Of a stretch of DNA of 64,000 nucleotides, positions 40,206 to 50,905 are shown piece by piece. The DNA comes from Bacteroidia bacterium (GTDB lineage: Bacteria; Bacteroidota; Bacteroidia; AKYH767-A; OLB10), in contig JAEUTH010000024.1 of NCBI GenBank assembly GCA_016788165.1, positions 1 through 64,000 on the forward strand. The letters run 5' to 3'. Within the stretch, counting starts at the first letter, position 1; each line of letters opens with the position of its first letter. The position numbers were made by a program, and so were the translations under genes. A model generated the notes under the pieces. That model was not told where the DNA came from and made no database searches. It worked only from the letters and a program-made list of their open reading frames with translations.

Positions 40206-40235
40206 CAAACATAGGGTTAATCTATAATCAGCAAG
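40206..40235 (-). promoter_or_regulatory. Bacteroidota-type promoter for the CotH-like gene
   Basis: On the minus strand, CTTG (40235-40232) and TATGTTTG (40213-40206) are 18 bases apart, an exact TAnnTTTG match. The start codon lies 18 bases downstream of the -7 box. The -33 element falls in the edge sequence (GCAAGTTGTCTG) of the adjacent intergenic repeat. Confidence 0.6.
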
Positions 40236-40462
40236 TTGTCTGAACTAAGATTTTCAGGATTATAGGATTATAGGATTTTTTTTCGATTTTTTAAAGTGCT
40301 ACTGTTGTTGCTAATTGTCTGAACTATGATTTGCATGATTATAGGATTATAGGATTCGTTTTCTGGTTTTCTAAAGTCCTTACGCACCTTCCAATCTGCT
40401 GAGCATAGCGCGCAGCACCCTTTAGGGTCGGGGTGTGGGATGGGTACCATGATTTTAAAATT
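40231..40462. repeat. Degenerate intergenic repeat region, two copies plus tail
   Basis: Two copies of a repeat beginning GCAAGTTGTCTGAAC (40231) and GCTAATTGTCTGAAC (40310) run into ~9-11-base periodic tracts (GATTATAGGATTATAGGATT at 40257-40276 and again at 40337-40356). A third, partial copy (GGGATGGGTACCATGATTTT, 40437-40456) leads directly into the stop of propeller gene A. Between them, 40357-40427 is less AT-rich and unassigned. This GTCTGAACCATGATT-type sequence looks like the short intergenic repeat family that is common in Bacteroidota genomes. Confidence 0.7.
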
Positions 40463-41986
40463 CTAATTCTTCACAAACTTTGCTGAAAGTACTTCTTTAT
40501 CCGTTACCAGTGTAACAATATACAAACCGTTGCTTAAATTACTAACATCAACATCCTGTGTGTAGTAACCCCCGGCCCCTGATGCATGGCCTTTGTGCGA
40601 GCGGTAAACTTCCTTGCCTTGTGTATCATATATCATCAGCAAAGCGTTTTTGCCTTTAACCTGTTGCGCATTAACGAACAGTTTTTGCCAGGCATGTATG
40701 TAGGTGGTTTGCAGTGTGGCCACACCTCCGGTTTGGGGTTGGGGGGCGATGCCTGTAGTTAAAGTATCGCATACACTGCCGGTTAGCGGGCCTAAATCAT
40801 AATCGGGGTTGTTGGGCAAGCCCCAGTAGGTGCGTTTACCACCAAGGTAAAAACTATACGGCTGAAAATCGCAGGCGGCACCAAGGCTATCGGGTTGGTT
40901 TATGACGCTGAGGTTCATGTTGTACATGTTGTACATGCTATCGGGGTATGGGTAGTTCCAACTGCCCATGCTGTCAATATATGCACAACTAACATATAGT
41001 TTGTTATCCGGTGCTCTGCGCACTGCGCCCAAACCTCCAACAGGAAAAGTAATGTGCCATAATGTATCCTTGGTTGCCGATGGGTTTGAATCAAGTAAAT
41101 TGTATTGAAGTAAAACGCATTCATAATCATTTGTTGTTAAATATAACAAATTGCTATTAGGGGAAAATGTGCACTCCCAGTATTCAATATACGGAAATGA
41201 GATTGATTGCGGTTCAATTGTTATTGGATTATAAATATTACCGGTACATCTATCAAAATCATAAACTTCAACCAAACTTGCTGTGTTCACAGAAGCTATT
41301 TTTGTTCCATCCGAGTTTACACAGAGCCTGTTAAACCCTGTGGGGTTTGGAGTTCCGCAAGAAACAACCTGTACATTACTTATTCCAAATGGTGTAACAA
41401 GGTATTCATAAAAATCGTTGTTTGATCCCCCAATATTATAATCATTCTTTCTGAAAATTACCCACCAGTCTCTACCATTTCCATGTTTAATTGCTATAAC
41501 ACAATCAACAGCAGGAACAGTGTCAAGTATAATATTCTTTTGTGTTACTGCTCCTAATACGCCATTTAAGCTCATGTCCACAATTGAGTAGTAGAAGCCG
41601 TAAATACTGGTTACGCCAGCTGTGAATATGAAGTATTGGTCACTGTCAGCGGGGTTTGGTAAAATTACATGTTCCTGGTACCATGCACGCCCTATTAATG
41701 AATCGCCATTTTGCATAATTAAGCCATCATTTTGATAGACAACACCGCGTTGTGTCAAGAATGCATTTGAATCATTTGCAACATAGAATAAGATATTTCC
41801 TGATGTATCTGCAATGGAAGCACAACTACCTCGTGAAACTACGGCTGAAGAATCAATTATGGCATTCGTTCCATTAGCAAATTCGATTGCTGCATTGTGT
41901 CCAAAACACCAATATTTATTACGATTTTGTGCTTCAACTTTTAAATTTATTAGAACAGCTAATATTATTAGAAAGCGAGATGCCAC
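40463..41986 (-). CDS. T9SS-exported beta-propeller protein, tandem paralogue A
   Basis: A 507-residue exported protein. GTG start with signal peptide (LKVEAQ, ~19). Residues ~20-390 resemble the WD40/lactonase-like propeller found in large Bacteroidota surface proteins (YWCFGHNAAIEF; GNILFYVANDS; IKHGNGRDWWVIFRKN; FSPNSNLLYLTT; APDNKLYVSCAY). Residues ~400-507 are a linker and T9SS sorting domain (KNALLMIYDTQGKEVYRSHKGH ... NGLYIVTLVTDKEVLSAKFVKN). This is the last of four tandem paralogues. The ~100 C-terminal residues are almost identical in all four, while the propellers differ. It starts 11 bases after a truncated beta-helix gene. Confidence 0.87.
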   Translation of the reverse strand: MASRFLIILAVLINLKVEAQNRNKYWCFGHNAAIEFANGTNAIIDSSAVVSRGSCASIADTSGNILFYVANDSNAFLTQRGVVYQNDGLIMQNGDSLIGRAWYQEHVILPNPADSDQYFIFTAGVTSIYGFYYSIVDMSLNGVLGAVTQKNIILDTVPAVDCVIAIKHGNGRDWWVIFRKNDYNIGGSNNDFYEYLVTPFGISNVQVVSCGTPNPTGFNRLCVNSDGTKIASVNTASLVEVYDFDRCTGNIYNPITIEPQSISFPYIEYWECTFSPNSNLLYLTTNDYECVLLQYNLLDSNPSATKDTLWHITFPVGGLGAVRRAPDNKLYVSCAYIDSMGSWNYPYPDSMYNMYNMNLSVINQPDSLGAACDFQPYSFYLGGKRTYWGLPNNPDYDLGPLTGSVCDTLTTGIAPQPQTGGVATLQTTYIHAWQKLFVNAQQVKGKNALLMIYDTQGKEVYRSHKGHASGAGGYYTQDVDVSNLSNGLYIVTLVTDKEVLSAKFVKN

Positions 41987-41997
41987 GGCAATAATAT

Positions 41998-42624
41998 TTA
42001 GCGGTTAATAATTAGTGGCTTGCCTTTTACTATCCCTTGCTGTGTGATACTTATTAAATAAAGCCCATTTGATAATGAAGAAATATCTATTTCGGTATTT
42101 CTTGAAATATAATCTGAATTTAAAAGTATTCTTCCGGATGCATCAGCAATCTTTATTGCAAAGGGGGATGAACCCTCTTCCATTTTCACAGATACTTTTT
42201 CACTTGAAGGGTTGGGATACAATTCAAAATCAAAGTTGCTTTGTATTAGCATAAAATTTTCTGCCTCTTTCATTCGCAGTGGAAGGGCATCACAACTTGC
42301 TATTGCTGCACATGTAGAACAAGGCTGCGGTGTAATTTTTGATTGTATACCATTATAATTACCACTAACATCCATTGATGAGTTATTGGAATTATAATGC
42401 CAATCAATTGTACTCAAATTTAAAATACTCCCATCCAATCTCTTCTTCGCAGTCAATTTATCATCAAAAACATTTTCCCAGGTTTCGGTGGAGGTGCCTT
42501 GTTGTGAGAAGTAGGCATTGTCAAAGTATATGGCTTTTTCGTAATGTAAAGTGGTATTCTGCTTTAGAAATGAGTTGGTGCAAATGGTCTGAACCATGAT
42601 TTTTGAGATGGGTGTGATTTCCAT
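41998..42624 (-). pseudogene. 5'-truncated beta-helix T9SS gene fragment A
   Basis: An open frame of 208 codons that corresponds only to the C-terminal third of the beta-helix gene at 48.8-50.9 kb. The first ~17 codons (MEITPISKIMVQTICTN) are translated from the intergenic repeat. Real homology begins at NSFLKQNTT...YEKAIYFDNAYFS, continues through ETWENVFDD and KKRLDGS, then diverges and ends in a T9SS domain (ELYPNPSSEKVSVKM). There is no signal peptide, so the product could not be exported, and I call it a remnant. It keeps the normal position just upstream of its propeller gene. Confidence 0.7.
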
Positions 42625-42636
42625 GATTTTAATTTT
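42580..42636. repeat. Intergenic repeat copy between propeller B and fragment A
   Basis: A ~57-base copy with edge GCAAATGGTCTGAACC, core CATGATTTTTGAGATGGGTG and tail TTTCCATGATTTTAATTT, ending at the stop codon of propeller gene B. The junction with coding homology lies exactly at the GCAA edge. Confidence 0.8.
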
Positions 42637-44148
42637 CTAATTCTTCACAAACTTTGCTGAAAGTACTTCTTTATCCGTTACCAGTGTAACAATATACAAA
42701 CCGTTGCTTAAATTACTAACATCAACATCCTGTGTGTAGTAACCCCCGGCTCCTGATGCATGGCCTTTGTGCGAGCGGTAAACTTCCTTGCCTTGGATAT
42801 CATATAACATTAGCAAAGCGTTTTTGCCTTTTACCTGTTGCGCATTAACGAACAGTTTTTGCCAGGCACGTATGTAGGTGGTTTGCAGGGTGGCCACACC
42901 TACGGTTTGGGCTTGTGGGGCGATGCCTGTAGTTAAAGTATCGCATATACTGCCTGTTAGTGGGCCTAATTCATAATCGGGATTGTTGGGCAAGCCCCAA
43001 TAGGTGCGTTTGCCTCCGAGGTAAAAACTATACGGCTGAAAATCGCAGGCAGCACCAAGGCTATCCGGTTGGTTTATTACGCTAAGGTTCATGTTGTACA
43101 TGTTGTACATGCTATCGGGGTAAGGGTAGTTCCAGGTAAAGCCATTAGAGTAGGCACTGCTTACATACAGTTTATTATCGGGTGCCTTACGAACGGCACC
43201 AATAGAACCAATGGGAAAATTAAAATACCAGAGTGTATCTTTTGTAAATGCTGGATTGGTATCTAAAAGATTGTACTGAAGTAGGGTACATACTGTATCG
43301 AGTTGGGTTACATACAATAGATTCCCGTTTGGTGAGAAGGCGCATTCCCAAAATTCAATATATGGAAATGATGTCGCTTGAGACTCAATTGTTCTTGGAT
43401 TATAAATATTCCCGCTACATCTATCAAAATCATAAACTTCAACTAAACTTGCCGAATTGACCGAGGCGAGTTTGGTCCCGTCAGCACTAAGGCATAAGCG
43501 ATTAAATCCAGTAGGATTAGGCGTGCCACAAGATACAACCTGTACATTGCTAATGCCGGAAGGGGTAATCAAGTATAAATAGAAATTGTTATTCGAACCA
43601 CCTGTATTGTAATCACTTTTCCTGAAAATAATCCACCAATCCCGCCCGTTACCGTGTTTAATTGCAACAACACAATCAATTGCAGGAAAACTTTGCAATT
43701 GCATATTCTTTTGAGTAACCGCACCTAAGCCTCCATTTTGATTCATATCTATTACAGAGTAATAGCAGCCATAAAAAGCAGCAGCACCAAGTGAAAACAA
43801 ATAGTACTCACCGTTATAAGCCGGGTTTTCAATTGTAACTAGTTCTTTATACCAAGCCTCGCCAACAACACTGTCACCAAATTGCATTATCTGATGGTTC
43901 TTATTCCAAACCACTGTAGCATGGCCTGGGGTGGATATAGTGTTTGCATAAAACAATAAGTTACCAGTTGAATCTGAAAAAGAAATACAAGATCCCCTAC
44001 CATCCATCGAACTTGCAATAGGGATTGGGCTATTAATGTTACTGAAATCTATTCCTGCACTATCCCCAAAGCACCAAACGTTGCCTTGCTTTTGAGCAAT
44101 AGAAAGAAATGGAAACAATAATACAATTACTACCGAAAGTATTCGCAT
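42637..44148 (-). CDS. T9SS-exported beta-propeller protein, tandem paralogue B
   Basis: A 503-residue exported paralogue. The frame opens upstream at 44220, but the ATG at 44148 gives a standard signal peptide (MRILSVVIVLLFPFLSIAQ). Propeller motifs match paralogue A (VWCFGDSAGIDF; AIKHGNGRDWWIIFRKSDYN; TGFNRLCLSADGTKLASVNS; APDNKLYVSSAYSNGFTWNY). The C-terminal ~100 residues including the T9SS domain are nearly identical to paralogue A at the DNA level as well. The gene starts 22 bases after fragment B. Confidence 0.87.
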   Translation of the reverse strand: MRILSVVIVLLFPFLSIAQKQGNVWCFGDSAGIDFSNINSPIPIASSMDGRGSCISFSDSTGNLLFYANTISTPGHATVVWNKNHQIMQFGDSVVGEAWYKELVTIENPAYNGEYYLFSLGAAAFYGCYYSVIDMNQNGGLGAVTQKNMQLQSFPAIDCVVAIKHGNGRDWWIIFRKSDYNTGGSNNNFYLYLITPSGISNVQVVSCGTPNPTGFNRLCLSADGTKLASVNSASLVEVYDFDRCSGNIYNPRTIESQATSFPYIEFWECAFSPNGNLLYVTQLDTVCTLLQYNLLDTNPAFTKDTLWYFNFPIGSIGAVRKAPDNKLYVSSAYSNGFTWNYPYPDSMYNMYNMNLSVINQPDSLGAACDFQPYSFYLGGKRTYWGLPNNPDYELGPLTGSICDTLTTGIAPQAQTVGVATLQTTYIRAWQKLFVNAQQVKGKNALLMLYDIQGKEVYRSHKGHASGAGGYYTQDVDVSNLSNGLYIVTLVTDKEVLSAKFVKN

Positions 44149-44170
44149 AATTAATAAATCGTAAAATTGA

Positions 44171-44803
44171 TTAACGCTGAATGATAATTTTAGTGGTGGC
44201 AACCAACTTGCCATTTTCATGTATCGTCAATCCATAAAATCCATTTTGGATTTGCATTGTGTTTACGTGCGTGAACCGTAAATTGCTTTTTATGATTTGA
44301 ACAGTACGCCCGGTAATGTCATTTAAAACAATTTCAAATTCATTTGTTGATTCACCCGTTGCTTCAACCATAAAATAATCAGCAGCGGGATTTGGAAATG
44401 CTTTATAAATAGTTTTGGCATTGGTTTCAATATCATCACTAATCATTCTTAATGGCAACGCATCACAATCAATAATTCCAACGTTTGGAACACCTGATGG
44501 GGATACGTTAGCAAACAAAGTACTTGAAAGGTAGTTCCCGCTTATATCCTTAGCACTTTGACCTACACCTGAATTATAATACCAGAAAAGTGGAGCACTA
44601 AGCATACTCCCATCCAATCTCTTCTTCGTAGCCAAATTATCATCAAAAACATTTTCCCAGGTTTCGGTGGAGGTGCCTTGCTGTGAGAAGTAGGCATTGT
44701 CAAAATAGATGGCTTTTTCGTATTGTAAAGTGGTATTCTGCTTTAGTAATGAGTTGGTGCAAATGGTCTGACCCATGATTTTTGGGATGGATGTGATTTT
44801 CAT
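44171..44803 (-). pseudogene. 5'-truncated beta-helix T9SS gene fragment B
   Basis: A 210-codon open frame whose first ~17 codons come from the intergenic repeat (MKITSIPKIMGQTICTN). It joins beta-helix homology at the same base as fragment A (NSLLKQNTT). Shared segments are YEKAIYFDNAYFSQQGTST, ETWENVFDDNLATKKRLDGS and a diverged T9SS domain (KAFPNPAADYFMVEA). No signal peptide is present. The identical breakpoint shows that A and B descend from one deletion that was later duplicated. Confidence 0.7.
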
Positions 44804-44815
44804 GATTTTATAGTT
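44759..44815. repeat. Intergenic repeat copy between propeller C and fragment B
   Basis: GCAAATGGTCTGACCCATGA followed by TTTTTGGGATGGATGTGATT and TTCATGATTTTATAGTT, ending at the stop codon of propeller gene C. It is a few substitutions from the other copies. Confidence 0.8.
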
Positions 44816-46339
44816 CTAATTCTTCACAAACCTTGCTGAAAGTACTTCTTTATCTGTTACCAAGGTTACAATATACAAACCGTTGCTTAAACTGCTTATG
44901 TCCACATCCTGGGTGTAGTAACCCCCAGCTCCTGATGCATGGCCTTTGCGCAAGCGGTAAACTTCCTTGCCTTGTATATCATATAACATTAACAAAGCGT
45001 TTTTGCCTTTTACCTGTTGCGCATTAACGAAGAGTTTTTGCCAGGTATGTATGTAGGTGGTTTGCAGGGTGGCCACACCTGCGGTTTGTGGTTGTGGGGC
45101 GATGCCTGTAGTTAGCGTATCGCATATACTACCGGTTAGAGGGCCTAAATCATAATCGGGGTTATTGGGTAAGCCCTTATAACAACGTTTGCCTCCAAGA
45201 TAAAACGAGTAAGGTTGATAATCGCATGCCGTTCCAACGCTATCTGGATGATTGATAACACTGAGATACGTGTTGTAAACATTATACATTGTATCAGGGT
45301 ATGGATAATTCGAAGTTACGGTATTGTAATAAGCATTTGCAACATAAATTCTATTATCAGGTGCTAATCGAACAGCACCTAATGTAGCAATCGGATAATT
45401 CGTGAACTGTAATGTATCGCGAGTTAGAGACGGATTTGAATCACTTAGATTATATTGCAATAACAAACAAGACGAATCACTTGTCGTAACATAAAGCAAA
45501 TTACTGTTAGGCGAAAATTCACACTCCCAGTACCAGGGATATGGAGGTGAAGGCAATTCCGGCTCTAAAGTTCTTACGCTATCAATCAATCCATTACACC
45601 TGTTAAAATAATAAACCTCTATTAATCCTGCAGCATTTACTAAACCAATTTTATCGCCTTGGTTACTCACACAAAATTTTGCGAACCCTGCGGTGCTGAC
45701 AGAACCAGCAGTAAGAATAATTGTGTTACTTATCCCGTTTGGTGTTATTAGGTATTCATAAATTTCATTAGTAGATGGACTTGAATTTTTGCGAAACAAA
45801 ACCCACCAATCTCTGCCATTACCATGTTTTATAGCCGTGATGCAATCTGCCGTTCTGAAGGATTGCAATTGAACATTTTTTTGTACAACAGCCCCTAAAC
45901 CTCCATTCAATGTCATATTGATTTTTGAATAATAAAAACCATATACAGGAGTCGGGCAAGAATTAAAAGTATAATAGAGATTTGAATCCGCGGGGTCTGG
46001 AATTATCGCATGTTCCTGGTACCAAGCTTTGCCTGCAATTGAATCACCGTTCATCATTAGAGTGTGATTGCTATTGTAAATTACCCCTCGATCCCATAGT
46101 AATGTACTCGAATCATTGGCAATATAAAACAGAAGCTGTCCTGATGCACTACAAATTGATGCGCAGCTTCCTCTCGTTATTAGTGCAGATGTATCTGGCA
46201 CAGGAACTGGTCCGCTAAAGTTAATTGCTGCCCAATGACCAAAACACCAAACATCAGAGCGATGTTGAGCAACAATTTTATTGACACAAAAAAGAACTCC
46301 AATAATTAACGGAAAATAAAATGTTGGGAATCCCTTCAT
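44816..46339 (-). CDS. T9SS-exported beta-propeller protein, tandem paralogue C
   Basis: A 507-residue exported paralogue. The ATG at 46339 is preferred over the frame opening at 46384 because it begins a signal peptide (MKGFPTFYFPLIIGVLFC...IVAQ). The propeller is the most diverged of the four (IYEYLITPNGISNTIILTAG; LIEVYYFNRCNGLIDS; PPYPWYWECEFSPNSN). From LGPLTGSICDTLTTG onward the sequence is almost identical to paralogues A, B and D, so the 3' end has been homogenised or exchanged. It starts four bases after fragment C. Confidence 0.87.
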   Translation of the reverse strand: MKGFPTFYFPLIIGVLFCVNKIVAQHRSDVWCFGHWAAINFSGPVPVPDTSALITRGSCASICSASGQLLFYIANDSSTLLWDRGVIYNSNHTLMMNGDSIAGKAWYQEHAIIPDPADSNLYYTFNSCPTPVYGFYYSKINMTLNGGLGAVVQKNVQLQSFRTADCITAIKHGNGRDWWVLFRKNSSPSTNEIYEYLITPNGISNTIILTAGSVSTAGFAKFCVSNQGDKIGLVNAAGLIEVYYFNRCNGLIDSVRTLEPELPSPPYPWYWECEFSPNSNLLYVTTSDSSCLLLQYNLSDSNPSLTRDTLQFTNYPIATLGAVRLAPDNRIYVANAYYNTVTSNYPYPDTMYNVYNTYLSVINHPDSVGTACDYQPYSFYLGGKRCYKGLPNNPDYDLGPLTGSICDTLTTGIAPQPQTAGVATLQTTYIHTWQKLFVNAQQVKGKNALLMLYDIQGKEVYRLRKGHASGAGGYYTQDVDISSLSNGLYIVTLVTDKEVLSARFVKN

Positions 46340-46343
46340 AGTT

Positions 46344-47258
46344 TTAATGTTGAAGTATGAAATTCCCTTTCCAGACTTGTCCATTGGAGCTTAACTGAAT
46401 GAGATAAAATCCGGCCGCAAGTCCCATAACATTAACAGGTGCAGAAATAATATTTCCTTCTGAATTAAAAACTGCACGGCCAAAAGAATCGAAAATCACT
46501 ATCTTGCCTTGTGCTGGATTGCCTGAACCATCCTGAATGTTTATAAATCCATCAGAGGGATTAGGATATACAAGAAATTTAATTTTATTTTTATTATCAA
46601 ATGTTTTAATCATTTGCCTTTGCGGCAAAGTTTCGCAAGCGGTGGAATTACAACCTGAACAACCTTGAGTAGTTACAGTAAAATTAATAACTCCATTAAA
46701 CACACCACTTACATCCATTGTCGGGTCATTTGAATTGTAAAACCAAAGTATCGGAGAAGTGTTAGATAAACTGCCCGAAAGCCGTTCAACGTTTAGCCAA
46801 TTGGTGCTGTTATCGAAAGTATTGTCCCAGGTTTCAGTATTTGAAGCCTGGTCATTGAACTTAGCATTATTAAAATAAATAGCTTTGTTGTATTTCTCCA
46901 TTACATTTAATTTCAGCATCGAGCCATTCGCGCAATCACCTTCAAAATACATGGCATATCCGGTTTCTTTAATAACATTGCTGCAAATGTTTGCAGCCTG
47001 GCAATCCACTACATGTAACCCTCTCAAATTAGTTGAGCTATTGGGAGTGCCACTATTGTCAATATAATTTTCATGCACGTACACCCCATCACAATGGTCT
47101 AATGCAATGCCATAAAATGCATTGGGTAAAGTACCGGCTCCCAGATTAAATGCAATGGTATTGCCTGTGCTTTCTTTATAAATTTTAGCCCCATCTACCT
47201 TTGACATGGATATGCAAGTTGTCTGAACCATGATTTTTGGGATGGATGTGATTTCCAT
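46344..47258 (-). pseudogene. 5'-truncated beta-helix T9SS gene fragment C
   Basis: A 304-codon frame, longer than fragments A and B. The repeat supplies the first ~15 codons (MEITSIPKIMVQTTC). Homology to the full-length gene starts earlier, at ISMSKVDGAKIYKEST, and continues through the beta-helix turns (VYVHENYIDNSGTP; NLRGLHVVDCQAANICSN; GYAMYFEGDC) to a T9SS domain (LVYPNPSDGFINIQD). No signal peptide is present. Its different breakpoint shows an independent deletion, again at the repeat edge. Confidence 0.68.
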
Positions 47259-47270
47259 GATTTTAATTTT
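47214..47270. repeat. Intergenic repeat copy between propeller D and fragment C
   Basis: GCAAGTTGTCTGAACCATGA followed by TTTTTGGGATGGATGTGATT and TCCATGATTTTAATTTT, directly before the stop codon of propeller gene D. Confidence 0.8.
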
Positions 47271-48794
47271 CTAATTCTTCACAAACTTTGCTGAAAGTAC
47301 TTCTTTATCCGTTACCAAGGTTACAATATACAATCCGTTGCTTAAAGTGTTTACGTCAACATCTTGGGTGTAGTAACCCCCGGCCCCTGAAGACATGCCA
47401 TTGCGTGAGCGGTAAACAACCTTGCCTTGTATATCATAAAGCAATAGCAAAGCGTTTTTGCCTTTAACCTGTTGCGCATTAACGAACAGTTTTTGCCAGG
47501 CATGTATGTAGGTGGTTTGCAGGGTGGCCACAACTACCGTTTGGGGTTGTGGGGTGATGCCTGTGGTTAAAGTATCGCATATACTACCGGTTAACGGGCC
47601 TAAGTCATAATCCGGATTGTTTGGCAAGCCCCAGTACGTGCGTTTACCGCCAAGGTAAAAACTATAGGGTTGAAAGTCGCAGGCAGCACCAAGGCTATCC
47701 GGTTGGTTTATTACGCTGAGGTTCATGTTGTACATGTTGTACATGCTATCAGGGTAAGGGTAGTTCCAGGTAAAGCCATTGTAGTAGGCACTGCTTACAT
47801 AGACCTTATTATCGGGGGCTCTGCGGACTGCGCCCATGGCACCAAGCGGAAATGTGGTTAGCCAGATGGTATCCTTCGTAAGCGCAGGATTAGTATCCAA
47901 CAAATTGTATTGCAACAGTACACATGTTGAGTCGTTGGTGGTTACATACAACCTGTTGCCATCGGGCGAAAAGGCGCATTCCCAAAATTCAATATATGGA
48001 AATGATGTTGCTTGAGGCTCAATTGTTTTTGGGTTATAAATATTCCCGGTACATCTATCAAAATCATAAACTTCAACCAAACTTGCTGAGTTAACCGAAG
48101 CAATTTTTGTTCCATCAGAACTAATACAAAGGCGATTAATTCCAGTTGGGTTTGGAGTACCTGATGAAACAATTTGAAAATTACTAGCGCCTAAAGAAGT
48201 TATTAAATATTCATAAAAATCATTATTAGAACCGCCAATGTTGTAATCATTTTTACGAAAAATAATCCACCAATCCCGACCATTGCCATGCTTTATTGCC
48301 ATAATACAATCGACTGTAGGAAAACTTTGTAATTGAATATTTTTTTGCGTGATAGCCCCCAAACCATTATTTAAAGACATATCAATTATTGAATAATAGA
48401 AACCGAATTGACTGCTTCCAGTAATACCAATTGAAAACAAATAATATAATGATGATGAATCTGGTACTGGTGTAATTAATAATTCGCTATACCAGCCTTC
48501 CCCTACAATACTATCACCATTTTGCATCAATTGATGAGATTTATTCCATATTAATGCGGTATTACCTGGTATTGTAGCTCTTGTGTTTGCATAAAAAAGC
48601 AATTGCCCGCTTGAGTCAGCAATACTGACACAAGAGCCACGAGTATCAAGTGATGTAACAATAGACAATGGGATAGCGTTGTTAAAGTTTATTCCAGCAC
48701 TATCCCCAAAGCACCAGTAATTCCCCTGCTTCTGACTGTTTGCAGAATAGTTTATGAAAAGATGTAACAGCAGCAAGAAAATAAACTTTTTCAC
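47271..48794 (-). CDS. T9SS-exported beta-propeller protein, tandem paralogue D
   Basis: A 507-residue exported paralogue with a GTG start and signal peptide MKKFIFLLLLHLFINYSANSQ. Its propeller motifs are close to those of B (YWCFGDSAGINF; AIKHGNGRDWWIIFRKNDYN; NRLYVTTNDSTCVLLQYNLL; APDNKVYVSSAYYNGFTWNY), and it ends in the shared linker and T9SS domain with a few differences (VVYRSRNGMSSGAGGY). It is the first propeller of the array, 12 bases downstream of the only long copy of the beta-helix gene. That pair appears to be the unit that was duplicated. Confidence 0.87.
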   Translation of the reverse strand: MKKFIFLLLLHLFINYSANSQKQGNYWCFGDSAGINFNNAIPLSIVTSLDTRGSCVSIADSSGQLLFYANTRATIPGNTALIWNKSHQLMQNGDSIVGEGWYSELLITPVPDSSSLYYLFSIGITGSSQFGFYYSIIDMSLNNGLGAITQKNIQLQSFPTVDCIMAIKHGNGRDWWIIFRKNDYNIGGSNNDFYEYLITSLGASNFQIVSSGTPNPTGINRLCISSDGTKIASVNSASLVEVYDFDRCTGNIYNPKTIEPQATSFPYIEFWECAFSPDGNRLYVTTNDSTCVLLQYNLLDTNPALTKDTIWLTTFPLGAMGAVRRAPDNKVYVSSAYYNGFTWNYPYPDSMYNMYNMNLSVINQPDSLGAACDFQPYSFYLGGKRTYWGLPNNPDYDLGPLTGSICDTLTTGITPQPQTVVVATLQTTYIHAWQKLFVNAQQVKGKNALLLLYDIQGKVVYRSRNGMSSGAGGYYTQDVDVNTLSNGLYIVTLVTDKEVLSAKFVKN

Positions 48795-48806: not shown

Positions 48807-50905
48807 TTAGTGTTGAATGACAATTTTCTTTGATGCAATAATCTGTGATGACAAGGTAATCATCACATTGTAAATTCCCGTAGGAAAATTCCCGACATCA
48901 ATTATCGTTGAAGCAAGATTTGATTTTATCTTTAAAAGCACACGACCAGTTACATCAGATACAGCTATTTCAAAATTATTTTCGGATGGATGAATTAGCT
49001 CAAAAATAAAATTATCAGAAGCAGGGTTTGGATAAAGGTTAAACTCTAAGGGGGTCTCTGATTCGGGATTGGTATTCATCATTCGCACAGGCAATGCATC
49101 GCAATCAGTTATGCCATAGCCAGAAATTCCCAAGGTGTTTATTTTTGTCGGCAGTCCATTATAAATTCCACTAACATCCTTAGTAGTTTGCCCTGCACCT
49201 GAATTATAATACCAATTAAAAAGACTGCTTAGTATTGTCCCATCCAATCTCTTCTTCGTAGCCAAATTATCATCAAAAACATTTTCCCAGGTTTCGGTGG
49301 AGGTGCCTTGCTGTGAGAAGTAGGCATTGTCAAAATAGATGGCTTTTTCGTATTGCCAAGTGGTATTCTGCTTTAGTAATGAGTTGGTGCAATTGTCTTT
49401 AAAGTACATGGCATAGCCCATGCTGTCAATAAAGTTGCTGCAATAATTGCCGCCCTGGCTTTCTGTAATATGCATGCCCCGCAGGTTTACGGATGGGTTG
49501 GCCAACTCGTTGGTAACTCTGTTTTCATGTACAAAAACATTATCACACTCATTTAATTCAATGCCTGCATGTACAGGTGAAATGCCCTGCGTGGCATTAA
49601 AACTAAATTGAATTTTATTGCTTGTGCTTTCCTTATAAATTTTAGCCCCATCTACCTTTGACATGGATATGCCAATGCGTGGCTCTAATATGTAGTTGTC
49701 ATAAATCGCCACCTGCGAGGTTTGCTGTGTGGTGTTGCTTACATTTATGCCTATGCCGTAAGTGCCTGTGGTTAGTGCTGCTTGGGTTATTTGGTTGTCG
49801 TGTATGGTTATCCACGGGTGGGTGGCAGAGGTGTGGCCGGCATTAAGAATTTTTATGCCATACACAAAATCGTCAATCCGGTTGTAGGCTATATCAACGG
49901 GTTTGCTCAGGTTGTTTTCAATAAAGATGTCGGTATTTCTGTCGGTAAGGTCTTTGTTAAAACTATTGCGGCCTATGGCTACATTGTATTCACCTGAAAT
50001 TGTTATCCCCACAAGGTTGTCGGTTAGTACATTTCGTTTCGCAAAGCTGTTTTCTTTTCCAATAATTATTTTCTTTTCATTGTAATAGTTTGGCTGTTGT
50101 GCATTTATGGCTCCTCTAACAGGCGGGCTAAGCGCAGTAAAGGTGTTGTTATACACCGTCATGCCGGCATCTGTGGCTGCGATGCCGTAGCTGGCATTGG
50201 CACCTACTGCGGCAATTAGTGGCGGGTTGGTTGCAAAACCGGCATCGCTTTTTATTGATGTAGCCCAACTTATGGCCTCATCGGCATAATCAATTACAGT
50301 AGGAAATTTTAAATTATTGTTTTCGTCATTTGAATAAAACTCATTACCAAGTTCCACATTACGTACAGGTAAATTTAATTCGCGTGCATGGTAAAGCATC
50401 GCCATTTGATAATTTAAGTCAGAGGTAAGTATGTTTAAATTATACACGGGATCGCTGCCTGTTTTCAAAAATGTTTTTCGCATTTCCGTAAGCGTGTTTA
50501 TGGGCTTGCAAACCCAATTGTAATTGGTATTGTACCAATTTTTAGTCAATGCTTCAAAATTGTTTGGCATAATAAAACTGTCAGGTAACTTATTGAGAAA
50601 ATAACCTTTGCGCCAGTCGTAAAAATTTGATACCGTACCGCCCGGATACCGTAGGTTAGCCATACCTAAATCATTAATAATTGGTCGTAAGTTTGAGATA
50701 CATTATTAAAACAATTGTATCCCTGGTTATCCTGAATGGTATTGGTGCCATTATCGCCACAAAAATATTGTGGTAGCGTGCGCGAAGTTGTTATGGCAAC
50801 AGTTGCAGTAGTTTGGGCGTAGTCATTTTGTGGCCTCAAACATATTAACAGAAGTAAAGCGATAAATACATTTAAAGAGCGGGTATTTAGTGTATATGTT
50901 TTCAT
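48807..50905 (-). pseudogene. Chimeric glycosidase/beta-helix T9SS gene with a frameshift
   Basis: Two frames make one gene. 50905-50666 encodes a signal peptide (to ~DYAQ) and IQDNQGYNCFNNVSQTYDQL, then stops. 50663-48807 (618 codons) continues in another frame from INDLGMANLRYPGG. The whole length is not a multiple of three, so one base was gained or lost near 50670-50690. The N-terminal part resembles a clan-A glycosidase barrel (NLRYPGGTVSNFYDW; VRNVELGNEFY with candidate acid/base Glu at ~50342). The barrel breaks off near IAAVGAN (~50195) and right-handed beta-helix repeats take over (IAATDAGMTVYNNTF; ITISGEYNVAIGRNSF; GIKILNAGHTS), ending in a T9SS domain (NLYPNPASDNFIFEL). The nucleophile half of the barrel is missing. 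Confidence 0.72.

Follow-up and report, generated by a model that had tools for sequence, protein, structure and literature searches.

A decaying tandem array of beta-helix and propeller genes in a Bacteroidota genome, with microhomology at one of its two repeat-edge junctions and an association of the repeat's arms with GxxExxY nuclease genes

Tandem paralogues that evolve in concert, through gene conversion or unequal crossing-over, combine ends that are alike with diverged interiors and homogenised third codon positions, and silent-cassette systems of antigenic variation, such as pilS and vls, consist of a longer gene with variable copies behind it that are 5'-truncated, lack a signal and have constant ends. 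The array described here lies in a 64,000-nucleotide stretch of DNA (the window) on contig C12 of a 3.34-Mb Bacteroidota genome in a fragmented assembly of 46 contigs (G000, called the own genome below), and it has the features just listed for both kinds of system. It departs from concerted evolution as usually described in that a dispersed repeat and two novel joints lie within the homogenised block of the window, and from silent-cassette systems in that the upstream gene is frameshifted, each of the propeller genes in between has its full length and strains are not known to vary. Silent-cassette antigenic variation was considered as an explanation and rejected, since in place of an intact expression copy there is an upstream gene that is frameshifted in the assembly.

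The array runs on the minus strand from 50905 to 40463 and is made up of four tandem units, in the order beta-helix gene, propeller gene, short repeat (Table 1). The names 'beta-helix' and 'propeller' are those of the preliminary description, and the support for these folds comes from weak Pfam and NCBIfam matches. A T9SS C-terminal sorting domain scored above the cut-off in all six of the array proteins scanned, fragments A, B and C included. A long beta-helix gene is present in the first unit only, and the other three units keep 3' fragments of 304 aa (C), 210 aa (B) and 208 aa (A), each with an in-frame start at an ATG inside the repeat and without an obvious signal peptide. The long gene had been taken to be intact, a view that the assembly contradicts, as the gene is frameshifted there (ORF 50905-50666 against ORF 50663-48807; window 50660-50905). 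The lost 5' parts of the other beta-helix genes were not found elsewhere in the own genome, in which the first 160 residues only have distant homologues, on contig C28. Between the stop codon of a propeller gene and the next gene there are about 50 nt, mostly repeat. Each copy of the repeat in the array consists of a right arm alone, which does not fold. It had been stated that the repeat lies at the 3' end of every propeller gene; this proved too broad, as the fourth copy in the array is a stub only and, among the other propeller loci of the own genome, the repeat is present at the one on contig C19 only.

Table 1. Positions in the window of the array genes, repeat copies and joining sites.
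Feature	Position	Strand	Remarks
Upstream beta-helix gene, 5' ORF (signal-peptide end)	50666..50905	-	Out of frame with main ORF
Upstream ('intact') beta-helix gene, main ORF	48807..50663	-	T9SS sorting domain (PF18962 / TIGR04183)
C joining site, GGC before ATATCC	49671..49673	-	2-3 nt in common with the edge
A/B joining site AAAGACAATTGC in upstream gene	49389..49404	-	Best repeat-edge match of 2083 positions
Propeller gene 1	47271..48794	-	T9SS sorting domain
Repeat, right arm alone (outer edge GTTCAGACAACTTGC), no fold	47216..47261	-	Profile search E 3.5e-10
Fragment C ORF, start inside repeat	46344..47258	-	47213-47163 near-identical to upstream gene (2/51 differences), remainder diverged
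Propeller gene 2	44816..46384	-	ORF
GGGTCAGACC variant of the repeat, separating propeller 2 from fragment B	44761..44810	-	Profile search E 0.0014
Fragment B ORF	44171..44803	-	44761-44618: 2/144 differences from upstream gene, then diverged
Propeller gene 3	42637..44220	-	ORF
Copy of the repeat separating propeller 3 from fragment A	42582..42627	-	Profile search E 1.4e-8
Fragment A ORF	41998..42624	-	Junction same as B; 8/144 differences from B
Propeller gene 4	40463..41986	-	ORF
Canonical repeat copy past propeller 4	40313..40356	-	27/32 against arms of own GxxExxY unit
Second canonical repeat copy (40251)	40233..40278	-	30/32 against arms of own GxxExxY unit

Matches to the repeat core (minus strand AAAATCATGGTTCAGACNA) number five in the window, compared with 0.08 expected by chance, and include those at 47219-47237, 44764-44782 and 42585-42603. 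In fragments A, B and C, beta-helix sequence starts no more than 8 nt from the GTTCAGAC edge of the repeat, confirming that all three are joined to the repeat at its edge. The description of one breakpoint common to A and B and another for C was also confirmed, the former corresponding to window position 49389 in the upstream gene and the latter to 49671. End-anchored similarity to the repeat edge was scored at all 2083 positions of the upstream beta-helix gene. The A/B site ranked first among these positions, without a tie, the microhomology being AGACAATTGC versus AGACCATTTGC/AGACAACTTGC, whereas the C site, scored against C's own edge, ranked 164th of 2083, with 212 ties. Edge-like bases had been reported at both sites, and this holds for A/B but not for C. 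With the single best edge match of 2083 at the A/B site, these data give good support to joining by short homology at A/B, but not at C. Fragments A and B differ at 8 of the 144 nt beside the junction and, to judge from this comparison, have the junction in common by descent. As for the edge itself, the GCAA bases by which it had been defined lie outside the general edge of the repeat, which reads GTTCAGAC(A)A, and TTGC at the edge is common only to the copies of the window array and the neighbouring copy at 40251.

The fragments also turned out not to be the plain gene truncations that had been proposed. For a short way past each junction the sequence is almost that of the upstream beta-helix gene, with 2 differences over 144 nt in B and 2 over 51 nt in C; past these patches of 51-144 nt the identity to that gene falls to 33-70%, the remainder being an old, diverged paralogue, 50-60% identical. 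The block of at least 90% identity comprises the last 310-530 nt of the propeller genes, the non-coding repeat and the 51-144 nt past the junction, and the unit interiors between array copies are 50-70% identical. Third-position identity between the propeller genes is 85-95% near the 3' end compared to mostly about 35-50% in the middle, a rise that indicates recent homogenisation and not constraint at the protein level. An upstream-like patch followed by diverged sequence further implies that the junctions are not simple in-place deletions and that they are part of a block homogenised by recombination. Deletion within an old paralogue, in place, would not put upstream-gene sequence at the junction, and we infer from this either that the upstream gene was the joining partner and the product was passed on, or that template switching took place. 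Of the earlier proposal of deletion by short-homology recombination, the joining at A/B, at the best of 2083 positions, is therefore retained, but neither its extension to C nor a simple deletion in place.

The repeat was considered as a necessary cause of the homogenisation of 3' ends, and this was rejected. In JAKPPP01, a different Bacteroidota MAG (L111:3920-7524), the same pair of beta-helix and propeller genes occurs, with two tandem propellers and no repeat, and the 3' ends of these propellers show like homogenisation (67-100% identity at third positions vs 40-47%), indicating that homogenisation does not need the repeat. A close relative with the same array, by which the steps might be dated, was not found.

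By its sequence, the window repeat is one arm of a palindromic element of Bacteroidota. The palindrome is 75-150 bp long, dispersed and without an ORF, with the ends GTCTGAAC...GTTCAGAC, and in relatives it reads 5'-GTCTGAACC(A/T)TGATT...AATCA(A/T)GGTTCAGAC-3'. Example palindromes fold into stems of 31-33 bp, with energies between -30 and -37 kcal/mol and z near -13. In relatives, 29 of 42 distances from palindrome to gene 3' end fall within -26 to +9 nt, the 3' ends being intact, few gene 5' ends lie at palindrome edges, and the gene pairs around palindromes were convergent in 14 cases and divergent in 2. The palindromes thus sit directly behind stop codons, which explains the position of the repeat behind the propeller genes; in another MAG (L112), a full palindrome lies just past a propeller gene. 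The flanks of palindromes, read by eye, displayed no consistent target-site duplication, and a search for an empty site of one locus (L218 of genome G126) within its genus found none, the site being occupied in G180 and the flanks lying on different contigs elsewhere. The repeat had no family match in Rfam, and no bacterial description of its sequence motif was found in the open-access papers searched, which is no proof of novelty.

Several observations on the repeat and the palindrome stand apart from the junctions. The palindromes of G180, G126, G139, G217 and others (L199-L238), which lie behind stops and often between convergent genes, are possible bidirectional terminators. Two palindromes (L234:959-1111 and L235:995-1089) lie within long ORFs, unlike the usual post-stop position, and clusters of several palindromes were seen on contigs classed as viral (L168, L177, L197). 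In the own genome, the end of contig C23 (L048:3326-3954) and the start of contig C14 (L119:1644) carry a repeat-X-repeat-X-repeat array with a 315-nt unit, about 93% identical, and this array appears to span the gap between both contigs.

The repeat is present at eight loci in the own genome, as determined by profile search, and the repeat array on contig C39 surrounds a gene of 131 aa (C39:59949-60287) that belongs to the GxxExxY family (TIGR04256, PDDEXK_3), scores 130 bits against a cut-off of 35 and is the one GxxExxY gene in this genome. A test for a linked transposase-like or Rep-type protein had been proposed in the preliminary description. The Y1/HUH transposase domain (PF01797) had no match in G000, where the controls matched, and a protein of this type was rejected as the linked one; a linked gene does exist, namely this one for a PD-(D/E)XK nuclease between the same arms.

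Outward-facing arms of the repeat bracket GxxExxY genes in other genomes too. PDDEXK_3 genes with the window-type arm family were found at 9 of 20 loci in repeat-carrying genomes compared to 1 of 30 others. On the latter count the idea that PDDEXK_3 is tied solely to this arm family was rejected, and a general inverted-repeat test was applied, with a threshold of at least 30 for the score between left and right flank. An inverted repeat between the flanks was detected at 32 of 47 GxxExxY genes phylum-wide, versus 2 of 470 control windows from the same loci. Of the GxxExxY loci, a first batch came from genomes selected because they carry the repeat, and a second batch was phylum-wide with the best-scoring genes listed first. 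A second test, in which some loci were counted twice, gave 55 of 80 GxxExxY ORFs and 1 of 79 other small ORFs. The units are mostly 440-630 bp long, and the outer arm edges lie mostly 42-85 nt before and 37-104 nt after the nuclease domain. Arm families differ between units (GTCTGAACCnnGATT..., AACCACAGAGTTCACAGAG..., CGCAAAGGCGCAAAG..., CCGCGGATGACACGGAT...) and consist mostly of iterations of about 9 nt. The residues E27, D66, E76, K78, Q90 and Y94 (E, D, ExK, QxxxY) are invariant in 14 GxxExxY proteins.

The arms of these units resemble the gene-less palindromes. Genome G180 has a single GxxExxY unit, and when the arms of its dispersed palindromes are compared with the arms of that unit, a median of 30 of 32 nt agree. 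The copy at 40251, beside the array, has 30 of 32 nt in common with the arms of the C39 unit in the own genome. For the three propeller-linked copies the agreement with the arms of the C39 unit is lower (22-23 of 32), and a direct role of the nuclease in the junctions is accordingly a possibility and nothing firmer. When units from different genomes are compared, the DNA match tends to end close to the ends of the unit. No near-identical copies of a unit were seen within one genome, and no known transposase was found in the unit, the domain matches being to PDDEXK_3 / GxxExxY only. No description of inverted repeats or mobile units was found in the open-access papers that came up under the name GxxExxY. 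The repeat turns out to be the end piece of a widespread and apparently undescribed nuclease-gene unit. Two further observations concern these units: in L254, an imperfect direct repeat of about 26 nt on both sides (agcttc..tgcccgttcat.agcaa; ~1415-1441, 2008-2035) is a possible long target duplication, and the inverted-repeat-bounded GxxExxY genes of L239-L331 and of the own C39, with their many arm families, are possibly an undescribed class of mobile unit.

Our preferred reading, to which we give a probability of roughly 0.55, is that of a decaying tandem two-gene array in which microhomology joining, together with gene conversion or unequal crossing-over, made and spread the junctions, and in which the repeat is the terminal arm of a GxxExxY unit. 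The unit is a conserved pair, a T9SS beta-helix gene followed by a T9SS propeller gene, in tandem and by now partly decayed, with the unit ends kept alike by recombination. A half copy of the dispersed palindrome lies just past the propeller stop codon and was, in this reading, copied together with the propeller; the array, its pattern of divergence and the identity of the repeat are direct observations. The outer end of the repeat would have been joined to the interior of a beta-helix gene, so that downstream beta-helix genes lost their 5' parts, in the case of A/B probably via the 8-10 or so matching bases observed there (AGACAAnTTGC). Gene conversion or unequal crossing-over may then have carried the joined product, with a short stretch of the upstream beta-helix gene, from unit to unit. 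We infer the order and mechanism of these events; given that the near-identical patches start exactly at the junctions, joining and patch transfer may have been one coupled event, by template switching, and not deletion followed by conversion. The repeat itself is, in this reading, the terminal arm of an inverted-repeat-bounded unit carrying the gene for a GxxExxY PD-(D/E)XK nuclease. The association between arm and gene is shown by the data, and the unit is a candidate for movement and the nuclease a candidate cutter. What speaks against the preferred reading is that C is without meaningful microhomology and yet agrees with A/B in its breakpoint on the donor side, the TTGC edge, an agreement that chance alone would not favour.

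This agreement, of two gene breakpoints with one donor-side position, speaks for the main rival to microhomology joining and conversion, a less likely possibility, in which the arm is cut at its outer GTTCAGAC edge, by the GxxExxY nuclease or by some other enzyme, and end joining or template switching fuses the end to nearby genes. With a GxxExxY gene between the same arms such cutting is conceivable, the more so as those arms are nearly identical to the 40251 copy beside the array, the catalytic residues of the family are invariant, inverted repeats bound its genes phylum-wide, and the tandem units in C39 and C23 also start directly past the edge. However, among the eight repeat loci of the own genome no truncated gene was found at a repeat edge outside the window array, leaving edge-directed cutting unproven, and almost no sampled copy in relatives has one, their edges adjoining intact gene 3' ends; the directed use of the edge that had been put forward earlier was not borne out by the test proposed along with it, for which the own genome offers only about eight loci. 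Moreover, the array copies are the ones less like the arms of the nuclease unit, microhomology suffices for A/B, and, with a single event inherited by both A and B, at most two events call for explanation. It is quite unlikely, in our judgement, that the units constitute a new kind of minimal mobile element of about 440-630 bp found throughout the phylum, in which a single GxxExxY gene would supply a RecB/Cas4-like PD-(D/E)XK core that cuts the outer edge of inverted arms made of ~9-nt iterations, gene-less palindromes would litter genomes behind stops, and breaks at the edge would have made the junctions of the window.

In another reading the C-type junction is primary, and A/B arose when a C-like copy lost, by simple slippage, the stretch from GACAACTTGC in the repeat to GACAATTGC, some 280 bp further downstream, the edge acting as a direct repeat of 9-10 bp only. 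The direct-repeat match lies exactly at both points and the A/B spacer is equal in length to that of C, but the present fragment C is without GACAATTGC at that place and the precursor would need a closer likeness to the upstream gene, which makes this route improbable. The window, C39 and C23/C14 all have units that start right past an edge, and full elements are strong hairpins, which could also suggest integron-like cassettes of gene and repeat inserted serially at the edge by a site-specific recombinase. This we consider very improbable: the array copies are half elements with no fold, the units contain old tandem paralogues and not unrelated cassettes, they start at different points inside one gene, and homologous recombination between repeats yields the same rep-X-rep-X-rep pattern. 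The edge GTTCAGAC does not match the integron attC core GTTRRRY. Finally, with about 50 nt of intergenic space, mostly repeat, any upstream junction falls in or near the repeat, and illegitimate junctions could be found there by coincidence, simply because the repeat alone separates the genes; the unique best microhomology of A/B and the identical donor-side point of C speak against this, and we consider it very improbable.

Taken by itself, the array, with its microhomology joining and concerted evolution, is tidy but ordinary. The useful lead is the repeat, which ties a common post-stop palindrome of Bacteroidota to the common GxxExxY family of uncharacterised function. GxxExxY lies between inverted repeats in two thirds of the sampled phylum cases, and these repeats would be a candidate substrate for the nuclease, a role that could be tested in vitro.

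Compared with known dispersed elements, the palindrome resembles a MITE in being short, dispersed and without an ORF, with arms near-identical to those of a unit that carries a gene in its own genome (median 30/32 nt in G180). It differs in that the partner gene is a PD-(D/E)XK nuclease and no recognised transposase and in that the arms are iterated ~9-mers; no consistent target-site duplication was apparent in palindrome flanks read by eye, and movement of the palindrome is a candidate property. With REP/BIME elements and their RAYT (TnpA_REP) it has in common the position a few nt past a stop codon, frequently with convergent genes on the two sides, but the own genome has no Y1_Tnp, the palindrome lacks the GTAG/CGTC tag and has the ends GTCTGAAC/GTTCAGAC and a length of 75-150 bp instead of 20-40 nt, and its hairpins are longer (33 bp stems). 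Terminal inverted repeats around one gene, as at 32/47 GxxExxY genes against 2/470 windows, are also the layout of an insertion sequence, although the unit is without a known transposase. The gene in the own repeat array belongs to the known family GxxExxY (TIGR04256) / PDDEXK_3 (PF13366).
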